Positions 10,047-20,077 of a stretch of DNA of 20,215 nt are shown piece after piece (positions within the stretch are counted from its first letter, which is position 1; every line of letters begins with the position of its first letter). Under the pieces are notes generated by a model. It saw only the letters and a program-made list of their open reading frames with translations, did not search any database and was not told the DNA's origin. The translations under genes and the position numbers were made by a program. Origin of the DNA: Fibrobacter sp. (GTDB lineage: Bacteria > Fibrobacterota > Fibrobacteria > Fibrobacterales > Fibrobacteraceae); NCBI GenBank assembly GCA_021443065.1, contig JABUUR010000156.1:1-20215 (forward strand), given 5' to 3'.

Positions 10047-10065
10047 AGTTTAAATGGAGTTTATC

Positions 10066-11163
10066 ATGGGTTTTAAATGTGGTATCGTCGGACTCCCCAA
10101 CGTGGGAAAAAGCACCATCTTTAACGCAATCACCAACGCAGGCGCCGAAGCCGCAAACTACCCCTTCTGCACCATCGACCCCAACGTGGGCATGGTAAGC
10201 GTACCGGACTACCGCCTGGACGAACTGGTGAAGGTTTACAACCCCAAGTCCATCGTTCCCGCCGTCACCGAGTTCGTAGACATCGCAGGCCTTGTCAAGG
10301 GAGCCGCCCAGGGCGAAGGCCTGGGCAACCAGTTCCTTACCCACATCCGCGAATGCCAGGCCATCATGGAAGTGGTCCGCTGCTTTGACGACGGCGACAT
10401 CGTCCACGTCCACGGATCCGTGGATCCAGTCCGCGACGTAGACATCATCGAGACGGAACTGATTCTCAAGGATCTTGAGTCTGTGGAAAAGCGCCTTGCC
10501 ACCGAGGCAAAGAACGCCCGCATGGGCGGTGCCGAGGCCAAGGCCCGCCTTGCCGCCTGCGAAAAACTCCGGGACGCTTTCCAGGAAGGCAAGCCCGCCC
10601 GCGGTCTCATCGGCGACAGCGAAGAAATGGACCAGGTGATCAAGGACCTGTCGCTCCTTACCGCAAAGCCCCTGTTCTACTGCGCCAACGTAAAGGAAGA
10701 CGACATTCTCACAGGCAACGCCTACGTGGATGCCCTCAAGGATTACGCCGCCAAGAACGGTCACGAAGTAATCATGATCAGCGGGAAAATCGAAGAAGAA
10801 CTTTCACAGATGGAACCTCTCGACAAGCTGGAATTTTTGAAGGACCTGGGACTCAAGGAATCCGGCCTGGACGCCGTAGTCCGCAAGGGTTACGAGATTC
10901 TCGGACTTCGCACCTTCCTGACCGCAGGCGAAAAGGAATGCCGCGCCTGGACCTTCGAGGCAGGCTTCAAGGCTCCTCAATGCGCAGGCGTCATCCACTC
11001 CGATTTCGAGCGCGGGTTCATTCGTGCAGAAACCCTGGCCTTCGAAGACTTCATGAAGTACGGCAGTTGGAATGCCGCCAAGGAAGCCGGCGTACTCCGT
11101 ACCGAAGGCAAGGAATACGTGGTGCAGGACGGCGACATCATGCTGTTCCGCTTCAACGTGTAG
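10066..11163 (+). CDS. ychF: YchF/OLA1 family ribosome-binding ATPase
   Basis: A 365-residue member of the Obg-related YchF family, full length for the family. It has the P-loop GLPNVGKST (residues 9-17), the NYPFCTIDPN switch segment, the G3 motif DIAGLVKGA (72-80) and NVKE at 208-211. That last motif replaces NKxD and explains why YchF prefers ATP to GTP. The helical insert lies at about 125-200 and the TGS domain at about 280-365 (RTFLTAGEKECRAWTFEAG onward, ending GDIMLFRFNV). YchF binds ribosomes and modulates translation and oxidative-stress response. The ATG at 10066 is preceded by GGAG with six bases between. An in-frame ATG at 10054 overlaps that site and is less likely. It is divergent from the MATE gene. 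Confidence 0.97.
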   Translation: MGFKCGIVGLPNVGKSTIFNAITNAGAEAANYPFCTIDPNVGMVSVPDYRLDELVKVYNPKSIVPAVTEFVDIAGLVKGAAQGEGLGNQFLTHIRECQAIMEVVRCFDDGDIVHVHGSVDPVRDVDIIETELILKDLESVEKRLATEAKNARMGGAEAKARLAACEKLRDAFQEGKPARGLIGDSEEMDQVIKDLSLLTAKPLFYCANVKEDDILTGNAYVDALKDYAAKNGHEVIMISGKIEEELSQMEPLDKLEFLKDLGLKESGLDAVVRKGYEILGLRTFLTAGEKECRAWTFEAGFKAPQCAGVIHSDFERGFIRAETLAFEDFMKYGSWNAAKEAGVLRTEGKEYVVQDGDIMLFRFNV

Positions 11164-11250: not shown

Positions 11251-11854
11251 ACTGATGCGCCGATTTTTTCTTTGCCCGTCGGGCTTTCAGTTCCACAATA
11301 ATCGGCCTGATGATGGTGGCCAGGTTCATGGCGGTACCGATGAATATCATCATCGTGGCCGCATAGTAGCCGTGCCCCGGATTCACGGAAAGCAAGGGGA
11401 TTCCCAGGGCGGCAAGTATCTCGGTCAATTTTGCGAAAAAAGCGCTCATGGCCACCATGGTCATCATGCCCATGGCGATGGAACCCAAAGGCGAAATCCA
11501 GGCGAAGGCGGCGGCAATAAAGGCTCCAATCAAGATGGCATACAAAAAGGGCATGGGTTCCATCTTCGGAAAATTGGGCATGGTCCCGCGGAACTTTTCC
11601 AATGCGGCAGGGTTGCCCGTCTCCATCTTTTTCAGCATTCCCAGGGCAGGTTCCTGCAAGGCATCGTCTAGATCCAAGCCGGACGCAAGTTCGTACAGAT
11701 TAGGGGACGCAATCACCTTGTCGTCGTTGCAGGACACGGTGGTCAAAGGCATCAGCAAGGCGACAATGACCAGCAGATAGGGAATTGCGGTAATCCTCTT
11801 GAATAGGCGCAGAGGTTTTTCTTCTTGTTTTTCAATTTTTTCATTACTCATCAT
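11249..11854 (-). CDS. Small four-helix membrane protein of unknown function
   Basis: A 201-residue protein with a charged N-terminus (Lys/Glu-rich, 1-20), membrane segments at about 22-41, 101-120, 125-148 and 162-187, and a Lys/Arg-rich C-terminus. The loop between helices 1 and 2 (about 42-99) has acidic and amphipathic stretches. No domain is recognised. The first ATG (11854) overlaps the stop of the FGE-fold gene by four bases (ATGA) and has GAGG four bases upstream; a second ATG follows directly at 11851. This overlap points to translational coupling, so it may work with the exported FGE-fold protein, for example in its localisation. That partnership is inferred from gene order alone. 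Confidence 0.8.
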   Translation of the reverse strand: MMSNEKIEKQEEKPLRLFKRITAIPYLLVIVALLMPLTTVSCNDDKVIASPNLYELASGLDLDDALQEPALGMLKKMETGNPAALEKFRGTMPNFPKMEPMPFLYAILIGAFIAAAFAWISPLGSIAMGMMTMVAMSAFFAKLTEILAALGIPLLSVNPGHGYYAATMMIFIGTAMNLATIIRPIIVELKARRAKKKSAHQ

Positions 11855-14508
11855 TTTGCCTCAAATGTACTGCGAGGGAAAGCACAGCGGAATCCGATAG
11901 AGTTGGACCAGTAACGAGGATCTTCGTTTTCTCGCGAGGTCAAGTACAAACGCTTTTCCTGGTCCTTCCAGGATCCGCCCTTGTACACCTTATCGGAGCC
12001 CATCCATGCACCCGTGGGGTTGGAAGGTTCTACAATCAGGGAGAACACAAAATACTTGTCCTTGGTCCATTCGGCAACGTTACCGGACATGTCGTAAAGT
12101 CCCCACTCGTTGGGTTTCTTGCTTCCGACAGCCTGGGGGCCGTAATCCGGGGCACCCTTCATTTGTTTGTAAGAATTTTCCTGATAGACGGCGTAAACAC
12201 CTGGATCGGGTTTTTCATCTAGATTCCACAAGGCACCCTCGTTATTGCCGGCGCGGCCTGCAAATTCCCACTGTGCTTCGGTAGGAAGGTCACCGCCAAT
12301 GGCCAGGCAGAATTCCCGGGCATCGTTCCAGGAGATATTATGGACAGGCTTTTGAGGGTCTACAAAGACGGAACGGTCCTTGCGACGGTCTATTTTATTT
12401 CGACGGTCCATGACTTCCTGGTAGAACTGTTGAGTGACCTCAGTGGTGTGAATTGCAAAAGGCGACATGGACACCACCTTACCCTTGTAACTGAAGGAAC
12501 CGGAGTCGATCAAGGCCACGGTGCCGTAAGCGGCATCTTTCCGTATGCGGCCCAAGGAACTATCCATCGGGGCAACATTTTCCTTTTCGACGGATTCTGC
12601 GACCACGGGCCCTGCAGAGCCCGACGAATCGGCAGGGGCGGTTTCAACTGCCGCGGAGTCTGCACCTTGAAGTGCGGAGGAATCCGCAATCACAGTATCC
12701 GCAACCACCGAGTCTGCGGCAGTTTGAAGTGCGGCGGAGTCGGCAACCAAAGAGTCTGCGGAGGCGGAGTCAATCGCGATGGTGTCGGCAACCAAAGAGT
12801 CTGCGGAGGCGGAGTCATTCGCGATGGTGTCGGCAACAGCAGCCTTAGCAGAGTCTAAATTTGCAGTATCAGCGGATACGGAGTCTGCACCGACAGCCGC
12901 GGAAGAGTCCATTGCGACCGAGTCAACTGCAGACACTCTGTCTGCGGCAACGGAATTTGCAGTGGCGGAACCCAAATCTTGAATCGCAGCGGTATCGGCG
13001 GCCACAGTATCGGGTGCAGCAGGTTCAACAACCTTTGCCGTGGCAACAGCGACAGGCGCCGCTACAGGACGCACGAACTTGCCTACCCACTCCTGAACTT
13101 CAGGTTGCTCCGCAATATAGGATGGCAATTTAAATTCACCACGGCAAGCATAGGTTTCTTCATCAATAATCAGTTCCAGCCTGATGTAGCGGTAGTGGTG
13201 ACGTCCAGTCAAAGTTCCGTCCTTATAAATCCAGACCGGCCTGTTCTTTTCCAAAGTCAAGTGGGCCGTTACAGAGGAAGCCGCATCGAGAATGGCATAC
13301 AAAGTATCGGGAACCACACCGCTTGCATTGCCGACCCATGACACGTCAAAACGACCGTATTCCTTGCCGAACGTCAGGCGGATGGCGGAAATCCGCTTGT
13401 TTTTTGAATCGGGAGCATTCTCAAAGATAGGTTCGATTTTTTCGGGAACCATCGTTCCAGAAAGAGGTTTCTGCTGCAAACTGTCCAGCCTGTCGAGGAG
13501 TTTCGTTTCTAAAATGCCCGCCACACCCAACTTATAGGCTTGCCAGATTTTTTTTGTCTCGGCCCTACGTTTGTTGTACTGTTCCACATACTGCCTATAT
13601 TCCGGCATATCCTCGGGAATATTCAATTCAAAAACATCAAAGGATGTTTTCATTTTCGGATACTTCTTGTCAAATTCGCTAGTATCCAGCATGGATAAGG
13701 TCAGGTTGATATCGCTATGGAATTTGTCGTACAGGCCTTCCACCTCTTCGAGGCTTTGGGCCTTGTCGATAGCCTCCCCGGTCACATCCGTTTTTACGGG
13801 AACAACGGATTCCGTGTCAAGGGGAACCATCTGCGGCACGAAGGTTACAAATTCAGAATTCTTGACATAGACAAAATCCACATAAGGCAAGAAATCCGGG
13901 GCAGAAAAATCAAAGGCGTACAGCCCTGGTTTTACAGGATATATCTTGCTTACCGGTCGGCTCATCCGTTTAGTCAGGGAGGTAAACTGCAAATTGGCTA
14001 CGGACGTGTCGATAATAATGGCGCCCGGACGATTCGTCTCCTTGATTTCCTTCCAACGGCCATCTTTCATAAAGTACAGAGTGGAAACACGGGAGGAGTA
14101 AATGAATTCCTTGTCGAAGTAAATATCGGTTTCATCCTGAAAGGCCCTGGAGTTGCGAGACCCGTAAAAACGGGTATAGACCATTTCCTCGGGCTTCAAA
14201 AGATTTTCCTTCATGCTGAACGCGTGAAGATTAGCAAAGTTTTCGTCTTCCACCTGGCCCTTGTACCAGTAAAATTCCTTGGAACTTTTTTTATGGCGCA
14301 AATAAAACGTATGGGCGTGAAGCGGAAGCTGAGGTATTTCCGAAATGGATTTAAAGCCTTCGTGCACAATTGCAATTTTCGAATCTTTCTTTAAAAGGGC
14401 CCCTTCCTGAAACTGATCCGCAGCAATCCGGAACATCCGTTCGTTTCCGGCCAACACAACAGCCGGAACAGCCAACAATAAAAAAATCAACGACCTTAGG
14501 AACTTCAT
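11851..14508 (-). CDS. Exported FGE/SUMF1-fold protein with repetitive O-glycosylation-like linker
   Basis: An 885-residue protein. The ATG at 14508 starts a signal peptide (MKFLRSLIFLLLAVPAVVLA). Residues 21-480 are an unrecognised extracytoplasmic region rich in aromatics. Residues about 483-650 form a low-complexity Ala/Asp/Ser/Val linker. Residues about 660-877 match the FGE-sulfatase fold: MSPFAIHTTEVTQQFYQEVM, then NISWNDAREFCLAIGGDLPTEAQWEFAGRAG, then GLYDMSGNVAEWTKD, KGGSW and SIGFRCAF. Aligned to human FGE, the two active-site cysteines fall at Glu851 and Leu856, so it should not make formylglycine; the fold is probably structural or ligand-binding, as in gliding-associated GldJ/GldK-like proteins. 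Downstream is a four-helix membrane protein overlapping by ATGA. Upstream is uvrA, separated by 60 bases with its own promoter box. Confidence 0.88.
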   Translation of the reverse strand: MKFLRSLIFLLLAVPAVVLAGNERMFRIAADQFQEGALLKKDSKIAIVHEGFKSISEIPQLPLHAHTFYLRHKKSSKEFYWYKGQVEDENFANLHAFSMKENLLKPEEMVYTRFYGSRNSRAFQDETDIYFDKEFIYSSRVSTLYFMKDGRWKEIKETNRPGAIIIDTSVANLQFTSLTKRMSRPVSKIYPVKPGLYAFDFSAPDFLPYVDFVYVKNSEFVTFVPQMVPLDTESVVPVKTDVTGEAIDKAQSLEEVEGLYDKFHSDINLTLSMLDTSEFDKKYPKMKTSFDVFELNIPEDMPEYRQYVEQYNKRRAETKKIWQAYKLGVAGILETKLLDRLDSLQQKPLSGTMVPEKIEPIFENAPDSKNKRISAIRLTFGKEYGRFDVSWVGNASGVVPDTLYAILDAASSVTAHLTLEKNRPVWIYKDGTLTGRHHYRYIRLELIIDEETYACRGEFKLPSYIAEQPEVQEWVGKFVRPVAAPVAVATAKVVEPAAPDTVAADTAAIQDLGSATANSVAADRVSAVDSVAMDSSAAVGADSVSADTANLDSAKAAVADTIANDSASADSLVADTIAIDSASADSLVADSAALQTAADSVVADTVIADSSALQGADSAAVETAPADSSGSAGPVVAESVEKENVAPMDSSLGRIRKDAAYGTVALIDSGSFSYKGKVVSMSPFAIHTTEVTQQFYQEVMDRRNKIDRRKDRSVFVDPQKPVHNISWNDAREFCLAIGGDLPTEAQWEFAGRAGNNEGALWNLDEKPDPGVYAVYQENSYKQMKGAPDYGPQAVGSKKPNEWGLYDMSGNVAEWTKDKYFVFSLIVEPSNPTGAWMGSDKVYKGGSWKDQEKRLYLTSRENEDPRYWSNSIGFRCAFPRSTFEAK
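12741..12830 (-). repeat. 45-bp in-frame tandem duplication in the FGE-gene linker
   Basis: Two 45-base copies, 12741-12785 and 12786-12830, differ at one position. They encode two 15-residue blocks (ADTIANDSASADSLV and ADTIAIDSASADSLV) inside a wider region of 15-base periodicity. The high identity suggests a recent duplication, and the linker length may vary between strains. Confidence 0.95.
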
Positions 14509-14557
14509 ATCTGCTAGAAGCACAAACAGGAATTGTGCGAATCTCTCCTTCTATCCA

Positions 14558-14568: not shown

Positions 14569-17500
14569 TTAAAAAGATCCATTGCAGCCCATTTCAAGCA
14601 GATGACCGCCGTTTCCGCCGCCCACAGGGCCCAATTCCACCTTCCAGTCGGCCAATCGGATAATATCGGGGTGATGTTCGATGATTATCACCGTATTTCC
14701 CCGTGCCGAAAGTTTGCGCAACTGGTTCCACAGGGTCTGAATATCCTTCAAGTGCAAACCCGTGGTAGGTTCGTCCAAAAGATACACCATCTCAGGGGCG
14801 TTTTTGCGGGCAAGTTCGGCAGCCAACTTAAGGCGCTGATTTTCGCCGCCGCTCAGGGTGGTCACTGGCTGGCCCAGTTTTACGTAGGGCAGGCCCACAT
14901 CACGAAGGGCTTCCAACTTGGGCAATATCTTAGGCTGGTCCTTGAAAAATTCGCAAGCCTCTGAAACACGCATGTCCAATACGTCGGCAATGTTCTTGCC
15001 CTTGAAGTACACCGACAAGGTTTCCTGATTGTAGCGTTTACCGCCGCAGGCTTCGCAAACTTCCCACACGTCCGAAAGAAAGTGCATCTCTACGGAAATG
15101 GCACCGCGGCCTTCGCAGGCGGCGCAACGCCCCCGCGCAATGTTGTAACTGAACCGCCCGTAGTCAAAGCCCTTTACCTTAGACTGTTCCAACTTGGCAA
15201 ACAACTGACGGATATCGTCAAAAACCCCGGTGAAACTGGCGGGAGTGCTGCGGGGCGTGCCCGAAATGGGACTCTGGTCCACCAGCAAAACTTCACCGGA
15301 CTGTTTCTTTTTCCCTCGGGCCTGGAACCTGCTTTTCAACGCCGGATAAATTTCATCCATGACCATGGAACTCTTGCCGGAACCGGAAACGCCGCACACC
15401 ACGGAGATGCCCCCCTTGGGAAACTTCACGGAAATATCCTTCAGGTTGTTCTTCGTAAGGTTTTCGAACTCGTAGAATTCAGTCCCGTCGGTAATGGGTT
15501 TCGCTTCAATCTGGTTCGTAATGGGGTTGCTGCGGGTCAAGTACTTCACCGTTTCACTGCGGGGGAACTGCTGCAGGGCATAGGGTTTCGACAAGGCCTT
15601 CGGGGAGCCTTCGGCCACCACCTCCCCGCCGAATTCACCGGCGGCAGGCCCCATGTCGATAATATGGTCCGCGGCCTCCATCATTTTCATGTCGTGTTCC
15701 ACGACCACCAGGGTATTGCCCAAGTCCCTCAGGCGGAACAAGGTATCCAAAAGTTTCGCCGTATCGCTTTCATGGAGCCCCACCGTAGGCTCGTCAAGTA
15801 CGTAGAGCACACCTTCCAGGCCACTGCCAATCTGGCTCGCCAGGCGGATCCGCTGGGATTCACCGCCGCTCAAGGTATCGCCGGAACGGTCCAGACCGAT
15901 GTAGCCCAGGCCCACGCTCTTCAAAAAATCTAGGCGAGCGATGATTTCTCGCAGCAAGGGTTCCGCCACCTTGGCCTTCCCAGCCCCGTTCTTTTCGCCT
16001 TCGAAGGAAACACCAGCAAACCAATCGCGGGCACTGTCGATGCTCATGTGATGAACATCCATGATGTTCATGCCCAAATTTTTCTTGCCCTGTTTTTTCT
16101 CGCCCCGCCCGCCGCCGATTCGCACGGCCAGGTACTCGGGCTTTAGACGTTCCCCACGGCACTTGGGGCACACCTTTCCAGATTCGAACCTGGAGTCTTT
16201 CACAAGGCCAAGGCCAAGGCAGTTTTCGCAGGCGCCCCAATGTGTATTGAAACTGAAGAGTTTGGGGTTCAGGGCGCTGTCCATGTACCAGCCGCAGCCG
16301 GGGCAGCCGGGCTTTTCACTGGCGCACAAACGTTCCTCTCCTTCGCAATCCACAAAGAGAATCCCGTTGCCGTCGCGGTAGGCCCTTTCAAAGGCCTCCA
16401 CCAGGCGGGCGCGGTTTTCTTCCTTCACCACCACCTGGTCTACGACAGCCAGAGCCTGCTTTTCGCGGGTGGGCACCTTGGGAAACGGCAGGTCCAGCAG
16501 TTTTCCGCCCATGTAAACCTTACGGTAGCCCTTTTCCTTCAGGATCATGGAAAGTTTCAACACGTCCTTGATTTCAAAGGGGGCAAGGACGGTCACCATC
16601 TTGTCCAGCTTGCGATCGAAGACCCACCGCATCAGGTCGCCCACGGCGTAGGAATCGACAGGCTTTCCACACTTAAGGCAGTGGGGCGTACCCACCCGTG
16701 ACCAGAAAATGCGGAAATAGTCGTAAATTTCCGTCAGGGTGGCCACCGTACTGCGGGGGCTCTTGCTGGCGGACTTCTGGTCGATCGCGATAGCCGGGGC
16801 CAGGCCCGAAATAGAATCCACGCTACCCCGGTCCGGGCGGCCCAAGAAGCGTCTGGCGTAGGTGCTCAAGGTTTCTACAAATCGCCTCTGGCCTTCGCTA
16901 AAGAGGGTATGGAACGCCAGACTGGACTTGCCGGAGCCCGAAACACCGGTCACCACGGTCAACTTGTGGCGGGGAATGGTCACGTCGATATTCTTCAGGT
17001 TGTGCTTGCGGGCCCCGCGGACTTCGATGTCCAGGGATGGTCCGTCACCTTTCATGGCCGCGGCCATCTTCGCAGAGGTCGCATTGTATCGGGCCTTGTT
17101 TTCTGCAAGACTTCCCATCAGGCGGGTGACGGGCTTGTAACCGTTCTTTGCCCTGGCAAGTACGGGAGCCAAATAGCGTCCGGTTTCAGATTTCTTGCAC
17201 TTTGCAATCTGTTCCGGGGTGCCAACCGCAATCACCTCACCCCCATGAACACCTGCGTCGGGCCCCAGGTCCACAATCCAGTCGGCGCACTTGATCACAT
17301 CCAGATTATGCTCGATGACAACGATACTGTTCCCCAACGACCGCAAACGATTCAGGCAGTCCATCAATTTGCGGATATCCTCGAAATGCAGGCCCGTGGT
17401 AGGTTCGTCAAGCAGATACAACGTCTTGCCGGTACCGGGTCTGCGAAGTTCCGCAGCAATCTTGATACGTTGGGCCTCGCCGCCGCTCAATGTGGTGGAA

Positions 17501-19944
17501 GGCTGCCCCAAAGTCAGGTAGCCAAGTCCCACTTCGCAAAGGAGGTCCAGAGGCTTTGCTATGCGGGGCTGGTCCTTGAAAAATTCGGCGGCCTCCCCGA
17601 TGCTCATGTCCAGGATCTCCGAGACGTTTTTCCCCTTGAAATACACCTCACGGGTTGCGTCGTTAAAACGCTTGCCGTTACAGACCTCGCAAGTCACCTG
17701 CACGCTGGGCAGAATGTGCATGTCGATTTCCTTGACTCCGGCTCCTTCACAGGCGTCGCAACGACCGCCCTTGACGTTAAAACTGAACCGTCCCTTCTTG
17801 TAGCCGCGGATCCGGCTTTCTTCCATGGAGGCGAACAGGTCGCGGATGTCGTCCCAAATCTTGGTGTAGGTGGCAGGATTGCTGCGGGGAGTGCGGCCAA
17901 TGGGAGTCTGGTCGATTTCAATCACCTTGTCGATGTTCTCAATGCCTTCCAGATGGTCAAACCTGCCAACGGGTTCCTCGGAATTGAAGAACACCCGGGC
18001 CAGTTCCCGCCGGAGAATCTGGTTCACAAGAGTGCTCTTGCCGGAGCCCGAAACCCCAGTCACAACGGTCAAGGCGCCGTCCAGCGGGATTTCCACGTCG
18101 ATGTTCTTCAGGTTGTTTTCGGCAGCGCCGCATATCTTGATCTTCGGGGTATCCTTGTCGATTTTCTTTCGGCAGGCAGGGACCTCGATAGCCTTGCGCC
18201 CGCTTAAATAGGCACCGGTCAAGGAGTCCTTGTTCTTTTCCAGTTCCGACACCGTACCTGCGGCAATGATGCCCCCGCCTTCAACGCCTGCACCGGGGCC
18301 CACGTCGACGACGTAATCCGCATGACGCATGGTGTCTTCGTCGTGCTCCACCACAATGAGGCTGTTGCCCTGGGCGCGCAAATGGTCCAGCATTCCCAGC
18401 AATTTGTCGTTATCCCGAGGGTGAAGCCCAATGCTGGGCTCGTCCATCACGTAAAGCACTCCCTGGAGGCCTGCGCCCACGGCACTTGCCAGGCGAATGC
18501 GCTGGGCCTCACCGCCACTGAGGGTGGAGGCCTTCCGGGATATATTCAGGTAGCCAAGCCCCACCGCATTCAAAAAACTCAGGCGGCCTCGGATTTCCTT
18601 CAGCACTTCCCGACCGATCCGCAGTTCCTTTTCACTCAAGTCCAACTTGTTGAAAAATTCCACAGACTCTTCCACGGACCATTCCGTCATTTCCGTCAGG
18701 TTGTGCCCGTGGAACTTCACCGCGTTGGCCATGCGATTGATCCGGGTTCCCTTGCATTCCGGGCACACCCCGATCTGCATGTACTTGCGAAAGTGGTAAA
18801 TGTGCCACATATCCCACAATTCCTGCATCACCGAGATTACGCCACGCATGGAACCGCTGGGGGTGCCGTACAGCACCGCCTTCTGCTGGGCGGGCTTCAA
18901 CTTGCACCAGGGGGTATCCAGGGAAAATTTCATTTCGTGGGCAATGATGCGCAAATCCTTCCAGCCGAAATCGCTAAAGATTACGTCACCCGTATCTTTC
19001 TTTTGGCAGGCCAGGGCGCCCATGTTTATGGACAAGTTCTTGTCGGGCACCACCAGGTCTTCGTCGAACACGCAGGACTCGCCCATGCCCTTGCACACGG
19101 GGCACTGCCCCTTGGGGTCGTTGAAACTGAAGAACCGCGGTTCCAGTTCCGGAATGGAAACACCGCACTTGGGGCAGGCCAGCAACGTACCCTGCAGGCG
19201 GTATTCCCCGTCTCCAAACAAAAAAGACACCAGTTTCCCTTCCGTCAATTTCAGGGCACCTTCCAAGGCTTCCCGAAGGCGGCTCATGTTCTTGCGTTCC
19301 AGGGTCAGCCTATCCACCACAGCCTCTATGGTGTGCTTTTCGTATCGCACCAACTGGGGGACTTCGTCTATGCGGTATATTTCACCGTCCACCCGGACCC
19401 GTACAAATCCGCTTTCCTTGAGTTCCGCCAATTCCTTACGGTATTCCCCCTTGCGTTCCTGGACAATAGGCGCCATCACCGTTATCTGACGGGGCACCCC
19501 CTGGATTTCACCGTCGCCGGCATAGAGGTTGTCCACAATCTGGTCCACCGTCTGTGCCTGGATTACGCGACCGCATTCCGGGCAATGAGGAACCCCCAGG
19601 CGGGCAAACAGCAGGCGGTAATGGTCCAGGATTTCGACCACCGTACCCACCGTGCTGCGGGGGTTGCGGTTCACCGTCTTCTGGTCAATGGAAATGGTGG
19701 GAGATATTCCGCGAACGCTTTCCACCTCGGGGTGTTTCATGCGGCCGATGAACTGACGGGCGTATGCAGAAAGGGATTCCACAAAACGACGCTGCCCTTC
19801 TTGAAAAATCGTATCGAAGGCAAGGCTGGACTTGCCCGAACCGGAGACACCGGTAACCACCACAATGGAATCACGAGGGATATTTAAACTGACATGGCGC
19901 AGGTTATGTTCGTGGGCATCGCGAATATCTATGGATTTTGTCAT
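14569..19944 (-). CDS. uvrA: Double-length excinuclease UvrA (two UvrA units fused)
   Basis: 1791 residues, about twice a normal UvrA (near 940). Unit 1 covers about 1-930 and unit 2 about 970-1791, joined by a short linker. Four ABC modules are intact: Walker A lysines at 38, 636, 1006 and 1524, LSGGE signatures, and Walker B Asp/Glu pairs at 501/502, 846/847, 1384/1385 and 1724/1725. All four zinc modules remain (C257/260/281/284, C729/732/752/755, C1214/1217/1239/1242, C1607/1610/1630/1633). UvrA with UvrB finds bulky DNA lesions for nucleotide excision repair. Unit 1 has the UvrB-binding KGEYRKEL motif and a full DNA-binding insertion domain (about 288-393); unit 2 has lost both. Fused UvrAs are known in Chlamydia. 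The ATG at 19944 is chosen because further upstream the frame runs through a tRNA. Confidence 0.97.
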
Positions 19945-20004: not shown

Positions 20005-20077
20005 GGGGGTATAGCTCAGTTGGTAGAGCGACAGGTTCGCAATCTGTAGGTCAGGAGTTCGACTCTCCCTACCTCCA
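20005..20077 (+). tRNA. tRNA-Ala (anticodon CGC)
   Basis: 73 bases fold into a full cloverleaf: acceptor GGGGGTA/TACCTCC with discriminator A, D-stem GCTC/GAGC, anticodon stem ACAGG/TCTGT, loop TTCGCAA with CGC at 20038-20040, variable loop AGGTC, and T-stem AGGAG/CTCCC with loop TTCGACT. The acceptor carries the G3-U70 pair, the main identity mark of tRNA-Ala, agreeing with the CGC anticodon (reads GCG). The first T-stem pair is A-C, a mismatch. CCA is not encoded. Confidence 0.95.

Follow-up and report, generated by a model that had tools for sequence, protein, structure and literature searches.

In a 20,215-nucleotide stretch of DNA from Fibrobacter sp. (the window, which is one entire contig of a metagenome-assembled genome (MAG) that is 70% complete), we found a single open frame encoding two UvrA units in tandem. 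The two units are not equal. The first (unit 1) is a complete UvrA, and the second (unit 2) keeps its ATPases but lacks the insertion domain (ID) as well as the RKGEY/RKG segment of the UvrB-interaction domain, hereafter called the arm. We propose, at a probability of about 60%, that the housekeeping UvrA of Fibrobacter is an obligate asymmetric pseudo-dimer.

Domain organization of the fused UvrA

An earlier note on this DNA had described the frame at 14569-19944 as a fused double UvrA, and the family model TIGR00630 bears this out by matching both units. In unit 1 the alignment runs without a break over model positions 2-924 (1247 bits in the whole-chain match); in unit 2 it comes in two segments, 2-287 and 399-918, which add up to 928 bits and skip only the ID stretch (288-398). 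The curated TIGR00630 cut-off of 729.8 bits is reached by unit 1 (1250.2) and by unit 2 (928), whereas the cut-off of NF001503 (1147 bits) is passed by unit 1 (1292.8) but not by unit 2 (948.4). The same loss of the ID had been deduced in the note from the spacing of cysteines, 110 residues between C284 and C394 in unit 1 versus 17 between C1242 and C1259 in unit 2, and Pfam agrees, with UvrA_inter recognised in two stretches and UvrA_DNA-bind (the ID) only once, at 294-363. No displaced ID was found in unit 2 or in the linker, and the lengths of both (820 and 42 residues, respectively) leave no ID-sized piece unaccounted for. Alignment and lengths together rule out a relocation of the domain within unit 2. 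The alignment also confirms that the RKGEYRKEL segment is absent from unit 2, as had been claimed.

Identity between the two units is 43% across 792 aligned positions, and identity to E. coli UvrA is 51% for unit 1 and 48% for unit 2. Walker A, signature, Walker B, and H-loop residues are present in both units, and unit 2 keeps both ATP sites along with DNA-binding arginines or lysines. The earlier statement that all ATPase and zinc modules are intact is right as to the residues but not as to the count of four zinc modules: UvrA has three per unit (PMC7835731), and the CxxC pairs of all six are present in the window sequence. An alignment of 20 fused sequences of the same type (family I, see below), one of which has its second unit cut by a contig end, shows the catalytic residues in 20/20 first units and 19-20/20 second units, with Thr replacing the Walker A-I Ser in two second units. 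Zinc cysteines are as well kept, except C253 (18/20 second units) and C256 (18 first and 16 second units). Within the UvrB-interaction domain of the window, the RKGE arm is confined to unit 1, and equivalents of E. coli R216 and E222, two residues that were mutated as a UvrB interaction surface (PMC3025350), occur in both units.

An AlphaFold model of unit 2 (predicted local distance difference test score, pLDDT, of 82.1) matches UvrA structures, and unit 2 is thus predicted to have the UvrA fold. Median ratios of nonsynonymous to synonymous substitution rates (dN/dS) are 0.060 for unit 1, 0.057 for unit 2, and 0.58 for the linker, whose mean identity is 31%. Both units are under strong purifying selection, and the value for unit 2 rules out that it is a pseudogene.

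The fusion as the probable housekeeping UvrA of Fibrobacter

Frames of this kind were recovered as 57 distinct sequences, including that of the window, from the Fibrobacteraceae and from families f2 and f4; among named genomes in the scan, horse-faeces Fibrobacter MAGs come closest to the window, with 91% identity in the best unit 2 segment. Although the window is a MAG contig, the possibility that assembly or annotation joined two neighbouring genes is refuted, and chance is excluded, because the frame recurs in all these sequences, among them those of the isolate F. intestinalis ATCC 43854 and of a one-contig genome (G077).

A second, normal uvrA in the genome, which the earlier note had named as a sign that the fusion might be a specialised paralogue, was not found: in 67/67 own or same-genus genomes there were at most the two matches of the fusion itself at E <= 1e-190 and no third, one genome giving no match at all (five best candidates per genome were scored in this phylum survey). 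UvrB was detected at E <= 1e-60 in 56/60 genomes (own and relatives), though not in the incomplete genome of the window, and a UvrC piece lies at a contig edge. Since no normal uvrA was seen beside the fusion and UvrB is present in most genomes, the fusion is very likely the nucleotide-excision-repair (housekeeping) UvrA of the Fibrobacter group.

A divergent UvrA paralogue of 803 residues without an ID is encoded on another contig of the window's genome (C162; L009:2074-4485, + strand). It scores 579 bits against TIGR00630, below the family threshold of 729.8, and similar frames occur in at least 31/37 own and same-genus genomes.

Insertion domain and arm among fused UvrAs

We surveyed 117 distinct two-unit frames of at least 1690 residues among the fetched loci, with identical frames counted once: 57 from the Fibrobacteraceae, f2, and f4 (same class), 9 from f9 and f12 (same phylum), 14 from Pseudomonadota, and 37 from Planctomycetota, the last two groups coming from the class of G156 and the phylum of G158. 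We left out frames that a stop interrupts or that are truncated at the end of a contig or locus (e.g. L031-L043, L055, L057, L067, L077, L088, L123, L191, L202, L205, L206, L245, L247, and L248). Outside Planctomycetota, all 80 frames have 109-131 residues between the cysteines of unit 1 but 11-46 between those of unit 2. Among planctomycete fusions, the motif spacing of unit 2 is short in four of 37, at 14-17 (L209, L210, L220, and L227), and full in the other 33 (105-141), which keep both IDs. Loss of the ID is therefore not a property of fusion itself, and the suggestion that it might be common to every fused UvrA is overturned; wherever the ID is lost, in 84 frames, it is lost from unit 2 (80/80 outside and 4/4 inside Planctomycetota). 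Spacing was followed where other measures disagreed with it, that is, for L228 and L244, in which hidden Markov model coverage scored the ID as absent despite full-length spacing, and for a few rows (e.g. L199, L219, L221, and L222) in which a second ID pattern was misled by an intervening CxxC-like pair.

The arm is present in exactly one half of 115/117 fused frames. The exceptions are L238, with an arm in neither half, and L231, whose unit 1 has an arm and whose unit 2 has an RKG tripeptide at the corresponding position. The count includes L226 and L241 as armed, with RRG instead of RKG, and L212, in which the pattern matched both halves and the second match, outside the arm, was rejected by eye. 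As a control, 29/33 single unfused UvrA frames have the arm; a looser control (39/45) included ten separate unit 1 genes of genus g19 (see below), one paralogue, and one contig-cut family II unit. No p-value is given for these counts because the frames are related and hence non-independent. The feature common to nearly all fused UvrAs is a single RKG arm.

Two further tandem arrangements were noted. The excluded L191, from a Rhodopirellula MAG, is a tandem UvrA with IDs in both units that is interrupted by one TAG in the opening part of unit 2, and a Thorarchaeota MAG has two complete uvrA genes side by side and unfused (L133/L137; G160:C32:41699-47352).

Two fusion families

The fused frames fall into two families by the place of the arm, which is in unit 1 in family I (Fibrobacter's group and Planctomycetota) and in unit 2 in family II (Pseudomonadota, Planctomycetota, and f9/f12 of the window's phylum). 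In a quick tree of 80 halves, built after removal of the UvrB-domain and ID columns and supported by Shimodaira-Hasegawa-like approximate likelihood ratio tests (SH-aLRT) in place of bootstraps, the Fibrobacter group clusters with the arm-first planctomycetes, both among the unit 1s (SH-aLRT 98) and among the unit 2s (95); the armless L238 falls inside these clades. In the arm-second group, to which Burkholderiales and f9/f12 belong, the unit 1s make up a single clade (100), as do the unit 2s (99). We read this topology as pointing to two separate fusion events, with the unit 2 ID apparently lost twice in family I and separately in family II. Approximately unbiased (AU) tests gave p values of 0.188 for grouping the two halves of family I (A1 + A2), as would follow from a tandem duplication, and 0.316 for grouping the second halves of both families (A2 + B2), as would follow from one shared ID loss.

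The family II fusions of Burkholderiales and relatives are like that of the window in being fused with an ID only in unit 1. They differ in that unit 2 carries the arm whereas unit 1 carries the R216/E222 surface, these residues being mostly lost from unit 2, and in usually occurring alongside another UvrA. All nine f9/f12 genomes with a fetched fusion have a single UvrA as well, which in one case is cut by a contig end. In the class of G156 (Pseudomonadota), at least 12/114 genomes carry the fusion, counting a contig-cut frame of G198 and excluding cut or broken candidates in G196, G213, and G222; ten of the 12 have a full-length single UvrA and two have partial matches only. Among Planctomycetota with a family II fusion, 7/8 genomes have another UvrA frame at E <= 1e-150, the exception being G357. 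The fusion is also found on Burkholderiales megaplasmids, where it is annotated as uvrA in the one of three records with a gene table there. As a further asymmetry, family II first units have lost the arginine equivalent to the DNA-binding E. coli R730 (replaced by T, H, M, or D).

The recurring outcome is one arm per pseudo-dimer, with any ID loss on unit 2. This could have arisen by neutral trimming, in which the second ID and arm became redundant after fusion and decayed by chance to leave an asymmetry without directional function. The planctomycete fusions with both IDs, which indicate that fusion can precede ID loss, fit such decay, as does the presence of the arm on either unit, which makes the side itself look immaterial. 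We nevertheless consider it doubtful, since every ID loss is confined to unit 2, exactly one arm is retained in 115/117 frames, and constraint on the remainder of unit 2 is as strong as on unit 1.

Probable secondary separation of the units in genus g19

Genus g19, which belongs to the same family as the window, has unit 1 as a gene of its own in 10/10 genomes (frames of 913-945 residues) and unit 2 likewise in 8/10, with fragments in one genome and none found in one. In the eight unit 2 genes (653-777 residues), the ID is missing and little or nothing of the UvrB domain is left. Because both halves are nested inside the fused clade and the outgroups are fused, g19 looks like a case of secondary fission that left two unequal free UvrAs.

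The free unit 1 of g19, kept in every genome, is one of two points in favour of another arrangement, in which fused chains pair in trans through unit 1 to give a conventional symmetric UvrA dimer with unit 2 as a tethered accessory ATPase; the other is that unit 1 alone has everything of a normal UvrA. We regard this arrangement as unlikely, given that a free unit 2 is also kept in most g19 genomes and that unit 2 retains its ATP sites and DNA-binding arginines or lysines.

A proposed asymmetric pseudo-dimer

In the asymmetric pseudo-dimer that we favour, the two units would pair within one chain like the two protomers of a normal UvrA dimer, and all four ATPases would drive the clamp on DNA. 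The single ID and the single arm-bearing UvrB-interaction domain, both on unit 1, would impose a fixed polarity, with one side mainly responsible both for gripping the lesion and for loading UvrB productively. A one-sided lesion grip, with UvrB loading favoured from the arm-bearing half, is what the ID-deletion literature would lead one to expect. E. coli UvrA without the ID discriminates damage less well, with global repair affected more than transcription-coupled repair, and deletion of residues 131-248 abolishes both (PMC3025350). Ecm16 without its ID does not bind DNA (PMC10192343). For B. stearothermophilus UvrA without the ID, no apparent in vitro defect had been seen earlier, which the authors attribute to the short DNA used (PMC3025350). 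In family II the same modules would be split otherwise, with the R216/E222-type surface in unit 1 and the RKG arm in unit 2.

The earlier division into a lesion-sensing, UvrB-loading half and an ATPase/clamp half stands insofar as an ID-less, arm-less unit 2 with intact ATPases is found lineage-wide, but unit 2 need not have lost UvrB docking. Several observations weigh against our proposal. The equivalents of R216 and E222 are kept in 20/20 and 18/20 aligned second units, respectively, and unit 2 may therefore still bind UvrB. No function for the RKG arm was found in the literature examined. An ID-less UvrA is the only UvrA found at E <= 1e-60 in two candidate-phylum MAGs (G157 and G159), so the ID may not always be needed. 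A model of the second nucleotide-binding domain of unit 1 (NBD-II) together with unit 2 reached a predicted template modelling score (pTM) of only 0.55, with the linker at low confidence, and the window's own 70%-complete MAG gave no good UvrB match.

The idea that the RKG arm is itself the UvrB docking site is weakened, as the R216/E222 residues are kept in the armless unit 2 of family I and mostly lost in the arm-bearing unit 2 of family II. A wider proposal, that tandem UvrAs arose at least twice, each with one arm per pseudo-dimer, and are obligate UvrA2-UvrB1 machines of natural origin whose inherent asymmetry sets the UvrB loading side, we put forward tentatively and think more probably wrong than right.

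Comparison with known UvrAs

Each unit of the fusion shares with class I UvrA (TIGR00630/NF001503; T. maritima 3pih and B. stearothermophilus 2r6f) a pair of ABC ATPases, the zinc modules, and the fold, and has a recognisable UvrB-interaction domain, reduced in unit 2. The fusion is unlike class I in having two units per chain and a unit 2 without ID and RKGE arm, below the NF001503 cut-off. A fused UvrA as such is already known from the model NF001885 (PRK00635), which has 1809 positions, long enough for two units per chain, and which we take to be chlamydial UvrA. Its match coordinates suggest that its first unit has an ID, but the window, at 1208.9 bits versus a cut-off of 3054, is not a member. 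Class II UvrAs (D. radiodurans UvrA2 and Ecm16) are, like unit 2, trimmed with full ATPases. However, they lack the UvrB-binding domain and zinc module 1 and have the ID, whereas unit 2 is the reverse, with the ID gone and a reduced UvrB domain and the first zinc-module cysteines (HCLKCG) kept, which rules out its assignment to class II. Stand-alone UvrAs that have no ID but keep the RKGEY arm are the only UvrAs found at E <= 1e-60 in MAGs of Kaiserbacteria (L097) and Lloydbacteria (L100). A literature search that covered few subscription journals gave no paper on the asymmetry between halves, on the restriction to a single arm, on the existence of two arm orders, or on the genus with fission.

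Features of the window

The coordinates are collected in Table 1. The start of the fused gene at 19944 (MTKSIDIRD...) could be extended in frame to 20157/20214, but the extension runs antisense through a tRNA-Ala gene; it is therefore taken as spurious, and the start at 19944 fits.

Table 1 Features of the fused uvrA and its upstream neighbour in the window.
Feature	Positions	Strand	Basis
Fused double uvrA gene, 1791 aa	14569..19944	-	open frame; TIGR00630 over both units
Unit 1, complete UvrA including ID and RKGEY arm (aa 1-929)	17158..19944	-	TIGR00630, NF001503
RKGEYRKEL arm of UvrB-interaction domain, unit 1 (aa 164-172)	19429..19455	-	alignment
ID, unit 1 (between C284 and C394)	18766..19092	-	Pfam UvrA_DNA-bind 294-363; Cys spacing
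Linker (aa 930-971, 42 aa), poorly conserved	17032..17157	-	identity, dN/dS, low pLDDT
Unit 2 (aa 972-1791, 820 aa), UvrA without ID	14572..17031	-	TIGR00630 in two pieces; AlphaFold model
Site of missing RKGE arm, unit 2 (12 residues, aa 1121-1132)	16549..16584	-	alignment
16-residue remnant at missing ID, unit 2 (between C1242 and C1259)	16171..16218	-	Cys spacing
tRNA-Ala(cgc), divergent neighbour marking 5' limit of fused uvrA	20005-20077	+	ARAGORN

Just downstream of the fused gene, positions 11851-14523 (- strand) encode a large protein with a C-terminal FGE-sulfatase domain and an alanine/aspartate/serine/valine-rich stretch. Elsewhere in the window, 10054-11163 (+ strand) encode a YchF-type GTPase, an ordinary housekeeping gene.

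Implications

Covalently tied, unequal UvrA halves can each be altered alone. Because the halves are tied and unequal, what a single ID, a single arm, and a single UvrB each contribute can be tested directly, which a homodimer does not allow, and the pair of unequal separate genes in g19 offers a second natural test. The fused asymmetric UvrA also bears on whether UvrA2-UvrB2 or UvrA2-UvrB1 is the working complex, a question that is unsettled (PMC7835731, PMC3025350); both UvrA-UvrB stoichiometries appear in the titles of solved structures (9ga3 and 9ga4). If the single-arm UvrA2-UvrB1 reading is true, a built-in asymmetry, not two UvrBs, would determine the side of the lesion that receives UvrB.

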